DNA of 41,321 nucleotides from assembly GCF_018139485.1 (NCBI RefSeq), contig NZ_JAGSNF010000014.1, forward strand, positions 1 to 41,321. The letters run 5' to 3'. The notes below the pieces were generated by a model. It saw only the letters and a program-made list of their open reading frames with translations, searched no databases and was not told the DNA's origin. The stretch is from Phycicoccus avicenniae (GTDB taxonomy: Bacteria; Actinomycetota; Actinomycetes; Actinomycetales; Dermatophilaceae). Below are positions 1,155-36,818 of this stretch, one piece after another. The translations under genes were made by a program, and so were the position numbers. Positions within the stretch are counted from its first letter, which is position 1. Every line of letters starts with the position of its first letter.

Positions 1155-2081
1155 TCAGCGGAGGGCGGCGAGCGCGACGGCGACCTGCGTCCCGACCCGG
1201 GCGTTGTGCTCGACGAGGGCGATGTTCGTCCGCAGCGACCGTCCGTCCGACAGCTCGACGATCCGGCCGAGCAGGTACGGGGTGATGTCCTTGCCCACGA
1301 CCCCGACGGCGTCCGCGTCGGCGAGCGCGCGGTCGATGACCCCGTCGATGTCGGCCCGCGTCATCTCGTCCGACTCCGGCACCGGGTTCGCCACCGCGAC
1401 GCCGGACTCCAGGCCGAGGTCCCACGTCGCCCGGAGCATCGACGCGACCTCGGCGGGGGTGTCGAGCCGCATCGGCACCAGGAGGCCGGAGGAACGGGAG
1501 AAGAACGAGGGGAACTCGTCGGTCCCGACCCCCACGACCGGCACCCCGAGCGTCTCGAGCACCTCGAGGGTGAGCCCGATGTCGAGGATCGACTTCACCC
1601 CGGCCGAGACGACGGCGACCTTCGTCCGGGACAGCTCGGTGAGGTCGGCGGAGACGTCCATCGACCGCTCGGCGCCCCGGTGCACCCCGCCGAGCCCGCC
1701 CGTCACGAACACCTCGATGCCCGCGAGCGCCGCGATCCGCATCGTGCTCGCGACGGTCGTCGCCCCGTGCCCGCCGGTCGCGACGACGTGGCCGAGGTCG
1801 CGGACGCTCACCTTGCGCACCGACGCGTCGGAGGCGAGCAGCTCGAGGTCGTCGGCGGACAGCCCGACGGTCGGCCGGCCCCGCAGCACGGCGATCGTCG
1901 CGGGGACGGCCCCGTGCTCGCGGACGATGCCCTCGACCGTGCGCGCCATCGCGACGTTCTGGGGATAGGGCATGCCGTGGCTGATGATCGTCGACTCCAG
2001 CGCCACGACGGGCTGCCCGGCGGCGAGCGCGTCGGCGACCTCGGGGGCCACGGCGAGCGGGGAACGGGGGGCGTCGGTCAT
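1155..2081 (-). CDS. psuG: Pseudouridine-5'-phosphate glycosidase
   Basis: A 308-residue protein, the usual family length. It reversibly cleaves pseudouridine 5'-phosphate to uracil and ribose 5-phosphate, the second step of pseudouridine breakdown in the cytoplasm. Family signatures are clear: VVALESTIISHGMPYPQN near the N terminus, the glycine-rich ATGGHGATTVASTMRIA, FVTGGLGGVHRGAE, and the SVSAGVKSILD-like lysine segment VVSAGVKSILDIG. An ATG at 2081 is preceded by GAGGAG eight bases upstream. Its start overlaps the psuK stop as ATGA, so the two are probably translationally coupled. The open frame extends further upstream to 2387, but that part overlaps psuK and is not homologous to the family. 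Confidence 0.95.
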   Translation of the reverse strand: MTDAPRSPLAVAPEVADALAAGQPVVALESTIISHGMPYPQNVAMARTVEGIVREHGAVPATIAVLRGRPTVGLSADDLELLASDASVRKVSVRDLGHVVATGGHGATTVASTMRIAALAGIEVFVTGGLGGVHRGAERSMDVSADLTELSRTKVAVVSAGVKSILDIGLTLEVLETLGVPVVGVGTDEFPSFFSRSSGLLVPMRLDTPAEVASMLRATWDLGLESGVAVANPVPESDEMTRADIDGVIDRALADADAVGVVGKDITPYLLGRIVELSDGRSLRTNIALVEHNARVGTQVAVALAALR

Positions 2082-3064
2082 CGGTGGGTCTCCTCGACGG
2101 GCGGGTCGGTGGGGGTGAGGTGCCGGCGCAGGAGTGCGGCGGACAGGTCGGAGCGGACGGTCTCGGGCGAGGCACAGGTGAGCGCCGCGGCGACCTGCCC
2201 GAGCCGGGCCGCCTCGACGACGTCGGCCCCGGCGAGGAGGGCGTGCACGTATCCGGCGGTCATCGCGTCGCCCGCGCCGGTGACGTCGACGACCTCGGTG
2301 GCCGGGGCCCCGACGGCGACGGCACGGCGGGGCGCGGTCCCGTCGTCGACGGACAGCAGGCTGCCCCGCTCGCCCCGGCGGACCCACACGTGACGGACCC
2401 CGTGCCGGTGCAGCTCGTCCGCGGCGGCCAGCACGTCACCGGTGTCGGGACCGACGCCGTGCCCGACGAGGGCGGCGAGCTCGTCGACGTTCGGGGTCAC
2501 GGTGTGCACCGGGCGCCCCTCGGCGAGGGCGGCCCGCACCCCGTCGGCCTTCACGACGCTCACCGGCTCGACGACGACCGGGACCGCCGCGTCCGCTGCC
2601 GCCTCGAGGAGGACGGCGAGCACCTCCGCGGGCGGGTTGGCGTCGAGCACGAGGAACGAGGTCCCCGCGAGGAGGTCCGGCACGTGGGCGACGTCGGCGG
2701 CGCGCAGCTCGTCGGTCGCCCGCATGTCGGCGACCGCGACGAGCAGGTCCCCGGCCCCGTCCAGGACGGCCGTGTAGGTGCCCGTGGGATGAGGTGTGAC
2801 GACGACGTGCCGGCAGTCGACGCCGGCCGCGGCGGTCCGTCCGAGGACGGTCTCGGCGGCCGGGTCCGCGCCGACCGGGGCGACGAGCCCGACGGAGGTG
2901 CCGAGCAGGGCGAGGTTCTCGGCGATGTTGCGCCCCACGCCCCCGACACCACTGACGGCCGTGCCCGGGTTGCTCGTCCCGAGGACGGGCGCCGCGACAG
3001 TGCGCAGCTTGGCGTCGAGCACGGCGCCGCCGACGACGAGGACTCGGGCGGGGGCGGCGGGCAC
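2078..3064 (-). CDS. psuK: PfkB-family carbohydrate kinase, probably pseudouridine kinase
   Basis: A 328-residue PfkB/ribokinase-fold protein. The N-terminal VLVVGGAVLDAKLRT and VSGVGGVGRNIAENLALLG mark the substrate side. The C-terminal VVDVTGAGDAMTAGYVHAL carries the GAGD anion hole with the catalytic Asp. On its own the family fixes only a sugar or nucleoside kinase. The 4-nt overlap with psuG makes pseudouridine the likely substrate, giving pseudouridine 5'-phosphate for PsuG. The start is a GTG at 3064 with no obvious Shine-Dalgarno sequence. A TAGGCT hexamer lies six bases upstream of the GTG, which would suit a nearly leaderless transcript. Confidence 0.88.
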   Translation of the reverse strand: MPAAPARVLVVGGAVLDAKLRTVAAPVLGTSNPGTAVSGVGGVGRNIAENLALLGTSVGLVAPVGADPAAETVLGRTAAAGVDCRHVVVTPHPTGTYTAVLDGAGDLLVAVADMRATDELRAADVAHVPDLLAGTSFLVLDANPPAEVLAVLLEAAADAAVPVVVEPVSVVKADGVRAALAEGRPVHTVTPNVDELAALVGHGVGPDTGDVLAAADELHRHGVRHVWVRRGERGSLLSVDDGTAPRRAVAVGAPATEVVDVTGAGDAMTAGYVHALLAGADVVEAARLGQVAAALTCASPETVRSDLSAALLRRHLTPTDPPVEETHR

Positions 3065-3115: not shown

Positions 3116-4402
3116 TCAGCGAGGGAGCCGGCGACCGGCCGCCTTGCGCCAGGCACTGAACGAGGTCACCGGACCGGCATGCGGGACGACGAGCCACGGC
3201 CACGGGTGTCGCACGGCGACGTCGAGTCGGGAGGCCCGCAGCCCGAACCCGGGAACGGGGGCGTGGGTCACCGCGAGCGGGGTCCCGGCGAGCTCCTGGA
3301 CGACCCTGCCGCGGGACACCCGGACCTCGCGCTCCTCCCCCAGCTCGGCCAGGGTCTGGGCGAGGAAGACGAGCCGCTTGCCGGACAGCCGCAGCCGGCG
3401 CAGCAGCGGCTCGTCGAAGCAGAACACGGCGGGCGCGTCGGGGTGCGCGGCGAGCGCCGGATCGTCGCTGCCGAGCGACTCCGCGGTGAGCCACACCGCC
3501 TCGACCGGCCCGTCACCCGCGGGTGCGGAGGGGCCTGCGGTCGCCTCGGGGTCTTCGTCCCGGCGCAGCCGCGGGTCCGGTTCGGCGACGCGGCCGGCGG
3601 CGCTCCCGACGTGGTCGGTGTCCGGCCAGTCCTCGATCGGGCAGGCGTCCCGCAAGGCGCAGCCGTCGCACAGCCCGGGCGCCCGCTTGCGCACCTGCCA
3701 GCGGGAGAAGCCGTAGGCCTTGGCGCTCCCGGCGCCGACGGTCCACTGCCACCCGAGCCGGTTGGCGGCGCGTGACCCGTCGAGGAGATGGGTGAAGAAC
3801 GCGTCCTCCCCGGGTCGCCAGCCCCAGCCCTCGCGCACCGTCCAGTGCGAGGACAGCCACATCCGGGTCTGGTTGACGAGCCATCCGTCCCGCTCGAGCT
3901 CGCCGACGGTGAGGTCGAGGCACGCCATGTCGCGCGACCACGGGGCCGTCCGGGAGGCCGGGTCGTCGGGTCCGTCCGGGCGTGGCTCGTCGGTGGGCGC
4001 GTCGTGCCGGAGCGCGGACCGGGTGGCGGTGCCCAGCCGGGCGTAGAGGTGGCGCGCGTACTCCTGCCACAGCAGCTCGTCGCGGAACTTCCGCACGTCG
4101 CCGGACGGCCCGCCGGCGACGTGGTCCCAGACCTCCCGCAGCGGCAGCAGGCCGTGCCGGATCCACGGGGACAAGGCCGACGCGCCCCGCGCGTCCTGCG
4201 GCCACACCTGGTTGCGCCGCCGGGCGTAGCCCGTGACGTCGAAGGCGGCGAGCGCCGAGTCCGCGGCCCGCTGGCCGCCGGGGAACCGTCCGCTCGCGCG
4301 CACCCTGTCCGGGCCCTCCGCCGTGAGGTCGCCGAGGTGCTCGGCGACCCAGGCGACGACGGCGCCGGGGTCACCGGCCGGGAGGGCGGGCAGCAGGGGC
4401 AC
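3116..4402 (-). CDS. Photolyase/cryptochrome-family protein with reversed domain order
   Basis: A 428-residue protein read from the GTG at 4402, seven bases after the mazG stop; an in-frame ORF to 4450 would overlap mazG. Residues ~58-240 match the helical FAD-binding domain of photolyases: YARRRNQ, then ASALSPWIRHGLLPLREVW, FRDELLWQEYARHLYA, GWLVNQTRMWLSSHW and AANRLGWQWTVGAGSAKAYGF. In ordinary photolyases this domain is C-terminal. Here it comes first and is followed by a Cys-containing linker (C245, C248, C254). Residues ~300-425 then look like the normally N-terminal alpha/beta antenna domain: VWLTAESLGSDDPALAAH, VFCFDEPLLRR, GKRLVFLAQTLAEL and a final TSFSAWRKAAG. The protein therefore looks circularly permuted. 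DNA repair or light-sensing activity is inferred. It is probably cotranscribed with mfd and mazG. Confidence 0.82.
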   Translation of the reverse strand: MPLLPALPAGDPGAVVAWVAEHLGDLTAEGPDRVRASGRFPGGQRAADSALAAFDVTGYARRRNQVWPQDARGASALSPWIRHGLLPLREVWDHVAGGPSGDVRKFRDELLWQEYARHLYARLGTATRSALRHDAPTDEPRPDGPDDPASRTAPWSRDMACLDLTVGELERDGWLVNQTRMWLSSHWTVREGWGWRPGEDAFFTHLLDGSRAANRLGWQWTVGAGSAKAYGFSRWQVRKRAPGLCDGCALRDACPIEDWPDTDHVGSAAGRVAEPDPRLRRDEDPEATAGPSAPAGDGPVEAVWLTAESLGSDDPALAAHPDAPAVFCFDEPLLRRLRLSGKRLVFLAQTLAELGEEREVRVSRGRVVQELAGTPLAVTHAPVPGFGLRASRLDVAVRHPWPWLVVPHAGPVTSFSAWRKAAGRRLPR

Positions 4403-4409
4403 GGCCGGC

Positions 4410-5366
4410 CTACGTCCCCGGCTTCGTCGGCGTCGGCGAGGCGACGGCACGCAGGGCGGCGCGGGCGTCGGCCTCGGCGGCGGCCAGGCGCTCCTGGGCC
4501 ACCTCGAGCCGCGCGAGCGCCTCCGGGTCGAGCTCCCTCCCCCGGCGCCGGGCGCGCGAGCGCACCTTGCTGGCGGTGAGGTCGACCGGCAGGGTCGCCG
4601 GCACCCCGTCGAGCAGGTCCGCGGCGTCCGCCCGGCCCCCCTTCTCGGTGGCCTTGATCCGCTCCCACTCCTGCTCGACCTGCTCCGGGCTCGACGCCTC
4701 GCCGTCGGCGAAGACGTGCGGGTGCCGGCGGACGAGCTTGTCGACGAGGAGGCCGGCGACCGTGTCGACGTCGAAGGCCGCGTCCGGGTGGGCGTCCTCG
4801 GCGACCCGGGCGTGGAAGACGACCTGGAGCAGGACGTCCCCGAGCTCCTCGGCGAGGTGGTCGGCGTCGCCGCTCCCGATCGCCTCGAGGACCTCGTGGG
4901 CCTCCTCGAGGAGGTACGGGGCGAGGCTCGTGTGCGTCTGCTCGGCGTCCCAGGGGCAGCCCCCGGGCGAACGGAGCCGGTCCATCGCGGCGACGACGTC
5001 GAGGAGCCGGCCCCCCTGGACGTCCCACGAGCCGACGACGACCTCGACGTCCGGCGGGGTCTCGAGACGGGAGACCTCGGACGCGAGCGCGTCCGTCAGC
5101 CCAGGGTCGGCGTCCGAGGAGCCGAGCCACACGACGTCGACGTCGTCCGCCGCGTCGACGAGGGTGCGGGCGAGGGCGGCCGGCGCGAGGGGGCCGAGGC
5201 ACTCGACGTGGAGGCCGGCCTCGACGAGGGCCTCGACGAGCGGCTCGTCGTCGGTGCGGGCGAGCAGCCGGCCGGCCGTCGTCACGGCCTCCCACGCGCC
5301 GTGCGACAGCAGACCCGGGGCGACCCGGGGCGAGGTGACGACGAGCCCGAGCCGCCCGGCCGTCAC
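4410..5366 (-). CDS. mazG: MazG-family nucleoside triphosphate pyrophosphohydrolase
   Basis: A 318-residue protein. Residues from ~125 form a MazG domain: MDRLRSPGGCPWDAEQTH, then EEAHEVLEAI and EELGDVLLQVVFHA. These supply the acidic EExxE and ExxD residues that bind Mg and the NTP. MazG hydrolyses nucleoside triphosphates to monophosphates and pyrophosphate and acts in house-cleaning of damaged nucleotides. The first ~115 residues are a separate region, possibly a shrunken relative of the tetrapyrrole-methylase domain fused to MazG in other bacteria; I could not confirm this. The GTG at 5366 overlaps the stop of the upstream lipoprotein gene as GTGA. The longer open frame to 5966 runs through that gene and is not used. 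Confidence 0.92.
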   Translation of the reverse strand: MTAGRLGLVVTSPRVAPGLLSHGAWEAVTTAGRLLARTDDEPLVEALVEAGLHVECLGPLAPAALARTLVDAADDVDVVWLGSSDADPGLTDALASEVSRLETPPDVEVVVGSWDVQGGRLLDVVAAMDRLRSPGGCPWDAEQTHTSLAPYLLEEAHEVLEAIGSGDADHLAEELGDVLLQVVFHARVAEDAHPDAAFDVDTVAGLLVDKLVRRHPHVFADGEASSPEQVEQEWERIKATEKGGRADAADLLDGVPATLPVDLTASKVRSRARRRGRELDPEALARLEVAQERLAAAEADARAALRAVASPTPTKPGT

Positions 5367-5907
5367 GGGGCGGCGGCCTCGGGCTCGGACTGGATCCACT
5401 CCGGCGTCATCGGCGCGACGGCGGCGACGTCGGAGTCGAAGTCGCCGAAGCGGGGGTTGACCTCGATGTCCTGCTCGTTGATCCGGGCGACGAGCGCCTG
5501 CTCGTCCTCGGGGGTGAACTGCTGGCTCTGGGCCGCGGTGTTGAGCGCGTTGAAGAAGCGCAGGACGCGGACCGTCGCGTCGCTCGGCTCGCGGACCCCG
5601 GCCTGCCGGGCGTCCCGCTCGGCGACCGACTCGGAGGCGACGATGCCGTTCTCCTCGAAGAACGCCAGCGCGGGGTCGGCGCGGACGAGGGCGGTGAGGG
5701 CGCTCGTGGGGTCGAACGGCTGCTGGAGCACCCCCATCGCGTTGACCTCCTCGATGACGGTCTGCACCTCGGTCTCGGTGATGACGCGACCGTCGACCGT
5801 GGCGGCGCGGTCGGTCTCGAGCGAGCCGCAGCCGGCGGTGACGAGCGCGGCCGCCAGGGTCAGCGCGGCGGCGGTGCGACGAACCGGGAGGGTCACGAGC
5901 AGTCCTT

Positions 5908-5911
<4 letters not shown>
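5363..5911 (-). CDS. SurA-N-like lipoprotein
   Basis: A 182-residue exported lipoprotein. An N-terminal hydrophobic stretch ends in the lipobox LVTAGC, so Cys28 would be lipidated and the protein anchored outside the membrane. The mature part begins with AATVDGRVITETEVQTVIEE, the pattern of the SurA/PrsA N-terminal chaperone module, and is otherwise helical. No parvulin peptidyl-prolyl isomerase domain follows, so it is a chaperone-module-only protein. Such proteins commonly sit between mfd and mazG in actinobacteria. Start and stop both overlap the neighbours by 4 nt (ATGA with mfd, GTGA with mazG), so the three genes are almost certainly one transcript. Confidence 0.85.
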
Positions 5912-9525
<3,614 letters not shown>

Positions 9526-33540: not shown

Positions 33541-35000
33541 CGGGGGGTGTCCTCCGTGTCGTCGCTGCTGTCCGCCGTGCGCGCCCGCTCCGCGGCCTCC
33601 GCCGTGGGGGTGCCGGCCCGGGCCCGGGCGACCCAGCCGTCGACGTTGCGCTGGCGCCCGCGGGCCACCGCGATCTGGCCGGGCCCGACGTCGCCGGTCA
33701 GGGCGCTGCCGGCGGCGACGTACGCGCCGTCGGCGACCTCGACCGGGCTGACGACGACGGTCTGCGAGCCGACGAAGCTGTGCGCCCCGACCCGGCTGTG
33801 GTGCTTGGCGACGCCGTCGTAGTTGGCGAAGATCGTGCCGGCGCCGATGTTGGCGCCCTCGCCGATGGTCACGTCCCCCGCGTACGTGAGGTGCGGGACC
33901 TTGGCGCCGTCGCCGATCTCGGCGTTCTTGGTCTCGACGAACCCGCCGATCTTGCCGCGGGCCCCCAGCCGGGTCCCCGGCCGCAGGTAGGAGTAGGGCC
34001 CGACGGTGGCGCCGTCCCCGACGACGGCGAGGAGGGCGACGGCCCGCTGGACCTGCGCCCCGTCACCGACTTCGGTGTCGGTGAGCGTGACCTCGGGCCC
34101 GACGACCGCGCCGGCGCCGATCGTCGTCGCACCGAGCAACTGGGTGCAGGGCAGGACGGTGGTGTCCTGGCCGATGCTCACGTCGACGTCGATCCAGGTG
34201 CTCGCGGGGTCGACGATCGTCACGCCCGCCCGCATGTGCCGCTCGCACACCCGCTCGTTGAGGACCCTGCCGAGCGTCGCCAGCTGGACACGGTCGTTGA
34301 CGCCCTCGGTCTGCCACGCGTCGTCGACGACGTGGGCCCGCACCTCGCGGCCGGCCGCGCGGGCGATCTGGACGACGTCGGTGAGGTACTTCTCGCCCTG
34401 GGCGTTGTCGGTCCCGACCCTGGCCAGCGCGTCCCGCAGCAGGGCGGCGTCGAAGGCGTAGATGCCGGAGTTGATCTCGGTGAGGGCGCGCTCGTCCTCG
34501 CTGGCGTCCTTCTGCTCCACGATGCGGGCGACGTGGCCGCCCTCGTCGCGGACGACGCGGCCGTAGCCGGTCGGGTCGGGCACGTGGGCGGTGACGACGG
34601 ACACGGCGCTGCCGCTCGCGTCGTGCGCCTCGGTGAGCGCGACGAGCGTCTCGCCGGTGAGGAGCGGGACGTCGCCGTACGTCACGAGGACCGTGCCGTG
34701 CAGGTCGGCGGGCAGGGCCTCGAGGCCGCACTCGACGGCGCGGCCGGTGCCCTTGACGTCGTCCTGGTCGGCGATGACGAGCCCGGCGTCGAAGCCGGTG
34801 CAGAACTCGACGACCCGCTCGCGGGCGTGCCGGACGACGACCGAGACGTGTGCGGCGCCGGTGTGCCGCGCCGCCCGGACCGCGTGGCCGAGGAGGGTGG
34901 TCCCGCCGAGCGGGTGGAGGACCTTCGGGAGGGCGGACTTCATCCGGGTGCCCTCACCCGCCGCGAGGACGATGACGGCGGCCGGTCGGGGGGTGCTCAC
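33537..35000 (-). CDS. glmU: Bifunctional GlcNAc-1-P uridylyltransferase / GlcN-1-P acetyltransferase
   Basis: A 487-residue protein of normal length. It makes UDP-N-acetylglucosamine, the precursor for peptidoglycan and for many surface polysaccharides, including perhaps the one encoded here. The pyrophosphorylase domain starts AAVIVLAAGEGTRMKSALPKVLHPLGG and has LVTYGDVPLL. After ~residue 250 the left-handed beta-helix acetyltransferase domain follows, with hexapeptide repeats and SYLRPGTRLGARGKIGGFVETKNAEIG, GANIGAGTIFANYDG and GSQTVVVSPVEVADGAYVAAGS. The start is a GTG at 35000. Minus-strand TAGGCT at 35041-35046 may be its -10. Confidence 0.97.
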   Translation of the reverse strand: MSTPRPAAVIVLAAGEGTRMKSALPKVLHPLGGTTLLGHAVRAARHTGAAHVSVVVRHARERVVEFCTGFDAGLVIADQDDVKGTGRAVECGLEALPADLHGTVLVTYGDVPLLTGETLVALTEAHDASGSAVSVVTAHVPDPTGYGRVVRDEGGHVARIVEQKDASEDERALTEINSGIYAFDAALLRDALARVGTDNAQGEKYLTDVVQIARAAGREVRAHVVDDAWQTEGVNDRVQLATLGRVLNERVCERHMRAGVTIVDPASTWIDVDVSIGQDTTVLPCTQLLGATTIGAGAVVGPEVTLTDTEVGDGAQVQRAVALLAVVGDGATVGPYSYLRPGTRLGARGKIGGFVETKNAEIGDGAKVPHLTYAGDVTIGEGANIGAGTIFANYDGVAKHHSRVGAHSFVGSQTVVVSPVEVADGAYVAAGSALTGDVGPGQIAVARGRQRNVDGWVARARAGTPTAEAAERARTADSSDDTEDTPR

Positions 35001-35040
35001 GCTGGCTGCTCCAGAGGGGTCGGGGCCACGGGCCGCGGTC

Positions 35041-35046
35041 AGCCTA
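35041..35046 (-). promoter_or_regulatory. Candidate -10 hexamer TAGGCT for glmU-prs
   Basis: Minus-strand TAGGCT lies 40 bases before the glmU GTG in the 126-nt gap after ptsI, with no clear -35. Identical or near-identical hexamers precede psuK, the APH-fold kinase, rplY and the glycosyl-1-phosphate transferase gene. Confidence 0.45.
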
Positions 35047-35126
35047 CCGCCGGGCCCGGCACCCTCGTCGCCTCCGGGTCGCTCGCTGCCGCGCCGTCCT
35101 GCGGCGCACCGTCCTGCGCCCGGTCG

Positions 35127-36818
35127 TCAGAGCAGGTCGGTCAGCTCGTCGGACGCGCCCGCGCGGACGGCGGCGAGCGCCTCGGTCGCCGTCGCCGCCT
35201 CGCGGGCGGCCTCGGCGAGCGCCTGGCACTGCGGCAGACCGTGCAGCGACAGGGCGAGCCGCACGACGGGGACCTTGCTCGGCGCCATCGACAGGCTGCC
35301 GACCCCGAGGCCGGTGAGGACGAGCGCGAGCAGCGGGTCGCCGGCCGACTCCCCGCACACCCCCATCGGGACGCCCGCGCGACGCGCCCCGTCGCAGGCC
35401 GCGGCCACGACGTCGAGGACCGCCGGCTGCCACGGGTCGAGGAGGTCGGACAGCTCGCCCTGCATCCGGTCGGCCGCCATCGTGTACTGCGCGAGGTCGT
35501 TCGTCCCGAGGCTGCCGAAGTCGACGTCGGCGAGGACGTGCCGCGCCCGCAGGGCCGCGCCCGGCACCTCGATCATGACGCCGGCCTTCGGCAGGCCGTT
35601 CTCGCGGACGCGCCGCGCGAACCAGGCCGCCTCCTCCGCCGTCGCGACCATCGGGGCCATGACCCGGACGTCGGCGCCGGTGTCGCGGGCCGCCACGGCC
35701 AGCGCCTCGAGCTGGGCGTCGAGCAGGTCCGGTCGCAGGGCCGACATCCGCAGCCCGCGCCGGCCCAGGGCCGGGTTCTCCTCGGGACCGAGGTCGGCGA
35801 AGGCGAGCGGCTTGTCGGCCCCGGCGTCCAGGGTCCGCACGACGACCCGGCGGTCGCCGAACGGCGCGAACACCCGGCGGTAGATGCTCGCCTGCTCCTC
35901 GACGGTCGGTGCCGCGTCCGAGGACAGGAAGACGAACTCGGTGCGGAAGAGCCCGACGCCCTCCAGGTCCTGGGCGCCGGCCTCCTCGGCGTCCTGGACG
36001 CCCCCGATGTTGGCGAGCAGCGCGACGTGGTGGCCGTCGGCCGTCACGCCCGGACCCGCGGAGGCCGCGAGGGCCTCGGCCCGGCGCTCCCGGCGCAGCC
36101 GCTGGGCATGCACGACCTCGGGGTCGGGGGCGACGGTGACCTCGCCGGAGTCGCCGTCGACCGCGACCGGGGTCCCGGCGGGGATCGCGAGGGCGGCGGC
36201 CACCTGGACGACGGCCGGGATGCCCATCTGGGCGGCGAGGATCGCGGTGTGGCTCGTCCGGCCACCGGCCTGGGTGACGATGCCGACGACGAGCGAACGG
36301 TCGAGGGTCGCCGTCTCGGCCGGCGCGAGGTCCTCGGCGACGACGACGCTCGGCTCGGTGATGGTGGGGATGCCGGGAGCAGGCACCCCGAGGACGGCCG
36401 CGACCGCCCGGGAGCCGACGTCCCGCAGGTCGGTGACCCGCTCGGCGAAGTACCCGCCGAGGGCCTCGAACTGCGCGGCGTAGACCTCGACCGCGGCCGC
36501 GACGGCGTTCGCCGGGCCGAGGCCGCGGGCGATCGCCTTCGCGGCCTCCTTGACCAGGCCCTTGTCGCGGGCGATGAGGGCGGTCGCCCGGAGGATCTCC
36601 TGGGCGGTGTCGTCCGACCGGGCGGCGCGCTCGTCGAGGGCGGCCGCGACGGTCCCGAAGGCCTCCCGTACCTGGGCCAGGGCGGCCTCGGTGTCGGCGG
36701 GCGCCGGCTCGTCGGCCGGCGGCCGGACCGGCGGCGCGACGAGCACCACCGGTCCGTACGCCGTCCCGGGGCTGACCCCGATGCCCTGACGGGTCTCCGT
36801 CGCGGCCACCTCGCTCAC
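35127..36818 (-). CDS. ptsI: PTS enzyme I (PEP-protein phosphotransferase)
   Basis: A 563-residue cytosolic protein that takes phosphate from phosphoenolpyruvate and passes it to HPr. GGRTSHTAILAAQMGIPAVV near residue 190 carries the phosphorylated His. The PEP-binding barrel has GVGLFRTEFVFLSS, GLRMSALRPDLLDAQLEAL, VMIEVPGAAL, FGSLGTNDLAQYTMAADR and GVCGESAGDP with the catalytic Cys. The start is a GTG overlapping the HPr stop as GTGA. It closes the fru/ptsHI cluster. Confidence 0.97.
   Translation of the reverse strand: MSEVAATETRQGIGVSPGTAYGPVVLVAPPVRPPADEPAPADTEAALAQVREAFGTVAAALDERAARSDDTAQEILRATALIARDKGLVKEAAKAIARGLGPANAVAAAVEVYAAQFEALGGYFAERVTDLRDVGSRAVAAVLGVPAPGIPTITEPSVVVAEDLAPAETATLDRSLVVGIVTQAGGRTSHTAILAAQMGIPAVVQVAAALAIPAGTPVAVDGDSGEVTVAPDPEVVHAQRLRRERRAEALAASAGPGVTADGHHVALLANIGGVQDAEEAGAQDLEGVGLFRTEFVFLSSDAAPTVEEQASIYRRVFAPFGDRRVVVRTLDAGADKPLAFADLGPEENPALGRRGLRMSALRPDLLDAQLEALAVAARDTGADVRVMAPMVATAEEAAWFARRVRENGLPKAGVMIEVPGAALRARHVLADVDFGSLGTNDLAQYTMAADRMQGELSDLLDPWQPAVLDVVAAACDGARRAGVPMGVCGESAGDPLLALVLTGLGVGSLSMAPSKVPVVRLALSLHGLPQCQALAEAAREAATATEALAAVRAGASDELTDLL

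Follow-up and report, generated by a model that had tools for sequence, protein, structure and literature searches.

A photolyase-family protein with reversed domain order and four invariant cysteines in Phycicoccus avicenniae and other Actinobacteria

Main finding

The window, by which we mean the whole 41,321-nucleotide stretch of Phycicoccus avicenniae DNA that was analysed, encodes a protein containing both parts of the photolyase/cryptochrome superfamily: a helical FAD domain, identified by Pfam, hhalign and structure, and an alpha/beta domain, identified by profile, HMM and fold. Considered as architecture alone, this is almost certainly a photolyase with the FAD domain N-terminal and the alpha/beta "antenna" domain C-terminal (Table 1). 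Four of its cysteines are probable ligands of a [4Fe-4S] cluster, and in sequence its active site resembles that of class I (CPD) photolyases more than that of FeS-BCP proteins. On these residues we regard it, with moderate confidence, as a light-driven DNA-repair flavoprotein of reversed order that would most likely work like class I CPD photolyase.

Table 1. Positions in the window of the reversed-order photolyase gene and its features
Feature	Position	Strand	Basis or conservation
Whole gene, reversed-order photolyase, 428 aa	3116..4402	-	GTG start; ORF list and long homologues
Helical FAD/DNA-binding domain including the Fe-S cysteine region, residues 1-256 (about)	3635..4402	-	Pfam, hhalign, AF2
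E109, W112 (Anacystis E283, W286), class I lesion-binding residues	4067..4078	-	101/101 each
C161 codon, first probable cluster ligand	3920..3922	-	Invariant 101/101; aligned with FeS-BCP cysteine
N177, M181 (Anacystis N349, M353); Q178 in place of R350	3860..3874	-	N, Q 101/101; M 96/101
W218 (Anacystis W390, electron transfer), W220 (W392, lesion contact)	3743..3751	-	101/101 each
C245, C248, C254 (CxxCx5CP), other three probable cluster ligands	3641..3670	-	101/101; aligned with FeS-BCP CxxC...CPF
Inter-domain linker, residues 257-299, poorly conserved	3506..3634	-	Family alignment; low pLDDT block 261-270
Alpha/beta domain, residues 300-428, shortened; homologous to class I N-terminal domain	3119..3505	-	Profile, HMM, fold

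Domain order

The preliminary description had claimed a FAD domain followed by an alpha/beta domain, and the motifs it quoted for each are present in the translation, in the stretches to which it assigned them (residues ~58-240 and ~300-425). Separate Pfam searches of the two parts, which it had proposed, answered for the first but not for the second. FAD_binding_7 (PF03441) covers residues 106-230 (E 4.1e-10, 39.8 bits against a cut-off of 27), a match limited to positions 1-125 of the 203-position profile. For the tail by itself there was no Pfam match up to E 1, and PF04244, the DPRP-type domain, gave none with the window protein. By hhalign the FAD domain matches class I FAD domains at 99.8% (E 1.2e-28, 188 columns). 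Over 74 columns, which correspond to the first half of the tail, a tail profile (residues 296-428) matches the N-terminal domains of 29 ordinary photolyases (hhalign 96.7%, E 3.2e-10). Control comparisons with five column shuffles, the reversed tail and a wrong domain gave 0.0 to 1.8% (0.4% for the wrong domain, the class I FAD domain), and the DPRP domain scored 2.8%.

Additionally, an HMM of the tail (alignment A2) was run in six frames against 296 genomes from the phylum with a threshold of E <= 0.001, with at most 14 first-look candidates scored per genome. The search returned 30 rows in 24 genomes, 20 of them tails of the reversed-order family and 10 the N-terminal domains of ordinary photolyases. 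All 20 family rows, the window's own included, are long reversed-order members with CxxCx5CP. Each of the ten others has Pfam DNA_photolyase first and FAD_binding_7 last, and the match falls in or at the start of DNA_photolyase.

Residues 1-272 of the AF2 model superpose on the photolyase helical domain (1owl 184-472), the structure closest to the FAD domain being that of FeS-BCP / prokaryotic (6-4) photolyase (PhrB, CryB). When the tail was folded alone, all 50 of the matches listed by VIA-align were N-terminal domains of photolyases or cryptochromes, and by structure the tail matches 1owm 3-163, the same protein as 1owl. Because the first part matches 1owl 184-472 and the tail 1owm 3-163, the break coincides with the linker between the domains and the former termini have become connected, the pattern of a circular permutation that had been proposed from the sequence. 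That the tail is instead an unrelated Rossmann-like domain, alike by chance or convergence, is scarcely credible: the HMM retrieved the family and photolyase N-domains and nothing else, the hhalign controls were clean, the 50 structural matches listed all agree, and Pfam DNA_photolyase finds the equivalent tails of Deinococcus relatives (E 7e-4 and 2e-4), below its curated cut-off.

The class I order (alpha/beta N-terminal, FAD C-terminal) is absent from the window, from the 101 family members gathered and from 20 of 20 in the phylum sample, all of which are reversed. Profile, genome-wide HMM, fold and the sub-cut-off Pfam matches therefore uphold the order claimed in the preliminary description. 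Its suggestion that this order was not previously known did not stand, reversed order being already in print in PMC9426592 and PMC13274461.

Cysteines and active-site residues

The window protein contains five cysteines, at 161, 245, 248, 254 and 328, and all but the last are invariant among the 101 family members. Against 13 FeS-BCP proteins the FAD domain gives hhalign 95.4% (E 1.9e-8), and all four invariant cysteines land on theirs. The four were not found in 15 class I rows. A linker with three cysteines (245, 248, 254) had been described earlier; these residues are there, but they are better taken as three of four probable [4Fe-4S] ligands, and C161 had been missed.

Active-site residues were compared in Anacystis numbering, for which we take E283, W286, N349, R350, M353 and W392 to be the lesion-binding residues and W367 and W390 to be tryptophans of the electron chain. 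Five of the six lesion residues are kept in the window protein, the exception being R350, replaced by Q178. When the FAD-contact set is taken as given in PMC9426592, three FAD/lesion contacts are replaced in 101 of 101 members: R287 (Q113), R350 (Q178) and D382 (S210). The distal tryptophan of the triad has no alignment in the window protein, where P140 stands at the site and W155 lies near. The lesion-site yardstick is itself blunt, as among the 15 class I rows four have Q at 283, two have F at 286 and four have L at 353. The Deinococcus sp. QL22 protein has Q at 283.

The same positions bear on a second reading, in which the protein is a reversed-order (6-4) photolyase, as Haney et al. proposed from Fe-S cysteines for Phr4/Phr5 and Phr6 (PMC9426592). 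We consider this a serious but distinctly less likely alternative. At Anacystis 349/350/353/367/390/392 the family has N, Q, M (L in 5 of 101), W (101 of 101), W and W, against H, I/V, L, P, M/V and H/Y in the 13 FeS-BCP rows, whose residues at 283 and 286 are Q and W; the FeS-BCP-type residues 349 H, 353 L and 392 H/Y are absent from the window protein, which has N, M and W. Also against it, the FAD domain is closer to class I (E 1.2e-28) than to FeS-BCP (E 1.9e-8), and an FeS-BCP is already present in 10 of 11 sampled genomes with the reversed-order gene.

Probable function

If the protein is a photolyase, its lesion would quite probably be the CPD rather than the 6-4 type. On absorbing blue light, reduced FAD in the helical domain would transfer an electron to the cyclobutane pyrimidine dimer that E109/W112/N177/M181/W220 hold in place, and the dimer would then split, with photoreduction running via W218 and W195. 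Support for the side that faces the DNA would come from the probable [4Fe-4S] cluster ligated by C161/C245/C248/C254. As for the tail, it would pack as the usual alpha/beta lobe, where binding of an antenna pigment may or may not persist. FAD binding, cluster binding, repair activity and any preference for single-stranded DNA are all predicted properties.

The published phr4/phr5 phenotype, by analogy, counts partly against the CPD reading of the window family. According to PMC9426592, which predicts that Phr4/Phr5 is of the 6-4 type, cells that have lost it survive less well after UV-C but not after UV-B, and phr4/phr5 in E. coli gives the same protection from UV-C in light and dark. Because of this UV-C-only phenotype and light-independent protection, CPD photoreactivation fits Phr4/Phr5 poorly. 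The replacements of R287, R350 and D382 and the bluntness of the yardstick likewise count against the class I-like reading. The glutamate, asparagine and tryptophans of CPD photolyase, some of which are usually missing from sensors, are all invariant in this family. It is as such improbable that a reversed-order photolyase has here given rise to a sensor of the cryptochrome kind or to a protein that binds DNA independently of light, even though the three altered FAD/lesion contacts, themselves invariant, and the equal protection of E. coli in dark and light would suit such a protein. A class I-like CPD photolyase remains our preferred reading.

Distribution in Actinobacteria

The 101 family members, the window's own included, are loci with >250 bits in one ORF, and all of them align past query residue 400; this full-length score filter favours single chains. 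Within the same order as the window's, 21 of 149 genomes contain a strong long match (E below 1e-100), and 20 of the 296 genomes in the phylum sample contain a long family member. Reversed-order photolyases with Fe-S cysteines are spread over a broad minority of Actinobacteria. Long members on contigs labelled Rubrivirga and Myxococcota MAGs nest inside actinobacterial sequences, which points to transfer or mis-binning.

Across 59 genomes of the order, 11 have the reversed-order gene, 13 have an FeS-BCP with the Cys motif and 10 have both (Fisher p 5e-8, shared ancestry ignored). The single genome with a reversed-order gene and no Cys-motif FeS-BCP is the window's own, which carries a class I photolyase, the reversed-order gene and a PhrB-like protein that lacks the cysteines. 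This PhrB-like (DPRP) protein is encoded on contig C24 near 34335-35627, and three other PhrB-like proteins similarly have no Fe-S cysteine motif. Relatives of PhrB without the cluster are counted among the 6-4 photolyases in PMC9178010.

Gene neighbourhood

The GTG start of the photolyase gene is separated by 7 bases from the stop of mazG (ORF 4410-5966), and an alternative upstream GTG at 4450 would overlap mazG. On the upstream side of mazG lie a small lipoprotein-looking ORF and mfd. A homologue from Phycicoccus flavus is 84% identical over its full length and is flanked by the same genes as in the window. The preliminary description had placed the gene in the mfd repair operon. That setting is found in the window and in one Phycicoccus, but the latter is the only such case among 53 relatives with >9 kb of DNA, and the mfd neighbourhood is lineage-specific.

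Directly downstream is a PfkB-type kinase whose best NCBIfam match, pseudouridine kinase, falls below its cut-off. A further downstream ORF gave no match in an NCBIfam search at 1e-5 and reads as a candidate pseudouridine-5'-phosphate glycosidase. The kinase and the glycosidase-like ORF (window 1155-3064, minus strand) could form a pseudouridine catabolism pair.

Relatives in Deinococcus

Deinococcus plasmid proteins (WP_151845379.1 and kin) are ~31% identical to the window protein and, like it, have the FAD domain first and the four cysteines. The four Deinococcus proteins compared keep R and D at the FAD sites R287 and D382, unlike the Q and S of the family, and have H at 350. Their four tails match the family tail at hhalign 99.3% and class I N-domains at 98.1%, in the latter case over 133 columns reaching the segment before the linker. 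Pfam DNA_photolyase matches a Deinococcus tail at E 7.2e-4 and a separate ORF of Deinococcus sp. QL22 at E 2.3e-4, both below the curated cut-off. On the QL22 plasmid the FAD domain (1396-2169) and the antenna domain (2166-2687, plus strand) are separate ORFs with a 4-base overlap, and this pair represents the reversed-order photolyase in split form.

The antenna-domain ORF of QL22 is annotated 'hypothetical protein'. The four Deinococcus relatives sit on plasmids of 380 to 669 kb, in a search of plasmid records alone. Eight annotated plasmid relatives of reversed order are all named merely 'FAD-binding domain-containing protein'. Because of such generic names, and because the window tail has no Pfam match, the reversed-order family is easily missed.

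Ancestry

A tree of FAD domains was built from 61 sequences: 18 of the 101 family members, 15 class I, 13 FeS-BCP, 4 PhrB-like proteins without the cysteines and 11 other FAD-first proteins. Five alphaproteobacterial relatives have the FAD domain first (Pfam having been run on two of the five), and we assign them to the NewPHLs from order and taxon. With all columns, a single branch (88/83, not starred) separates the FAD-first proteins from the rest, and the five NewPHL candidates join the reversed-order set. With the Fe-S and C-terminal columns removed, the best tree has two order changes; a tree with one clade scores 0.7 log units lower (p-AU 0.47), which neither establishes nor rejects the single clade. 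A single clade of Fe-S-bearing proteins was rejected with both column sets (p-AU 4.0e-5 and 2.8e-5), and therefore these models imply repeated loss or gain of the cysteines.

It is a matter of dispute whether the first photolyases were Fe-S (6-4) enzymes or short CPD enzymes (PMC9498864). As the family joins the Fe-S cysteines of one candidate ancestor to a near-CPD active site and reversed order, it offers a direct test of this dispute. A doubtful reading is that the Fe-S reversed-order photolyases survive as a link that connects both ancestors proposed for the superfamily, that an early cluster was lost in class I, NewPHL, Persicobacter proteins and some PhrB-like proteins, and that the two domains were originally independent or freely recombining modules. 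The link is suggested by one family combining the cluster cysteines of FeS-BCP with an active site of class I, CPD type and an antenna domain of class I type, and the modular origin by the split pairs that persist in Deinococcus sp. QL22 and marine Synechococcus. Were it true, CPD repair with an Fe-S cluster would be an enzyme type for which no assay was found in the literature searched.

Comparison with known systems

The FAD and alpha/beta domains of class I CPD photolyase (Anacystis, E. coli) are homologous to those of the window protein, and the E, W, N, M and W of the lesion site are shared. However, the domain order is opposite, and R287, R350 and D382 are replaced in the reversed-order family. 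The four cysteines of FeS-BCP (PhrB, CryB) align one to one with those of the window protein, whereas domain order is again opposite and the active-site residues differ. In fold, the tail matches PhrB and CryB as well as it does class I, despite the 2.8% profile score against the DPRP domain.

CPD repair in single-stranded DNA is a trait of NewPHL/SPL proteins. Their inverted topology, as described in PMC13274461 (citing Emmerich et al. 2020), is common to the window protein, and S. elongatus has an SPL according to PMC9178010. Unlike the window protein, the five alphaproteobacterial NewPHL candidates are without the four-cysteine set, and their tails match class I N-domains weakly (hhalign 18%).

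Among the literature matches listed we found no account of the actinobacterial reversed-order family, which Emmerich 2020 and Xu 2021 may include. Phr4/Phr5 and Phr6 of marine Synechococcus and Cyanobium, with reversed order and four Fe-S cysteines, were described by Haney et al. 2022 (PMC9426592). Compared by description, these have the FAD domain first and the photolyase domain last, as in the window protein. In RS9916 Phr4 the cysteines are C169/C254/C257/C263, a spacing of 85/3/6, and in the window protein they are C161/C245/C248/C254, a spacing of 84/3/6. The phr4 and phr5 of marine Synechococcus are separate frames, while the 101 members here are single chains, as the manner of gathering favours. 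Reversed order is known in print as a principle, and its spread is wider than in the accounts found. To this the analysis adds that spread in Actinobacteria, the divided Deinococcus form and a combination of features relevant to photolyase ancestry.
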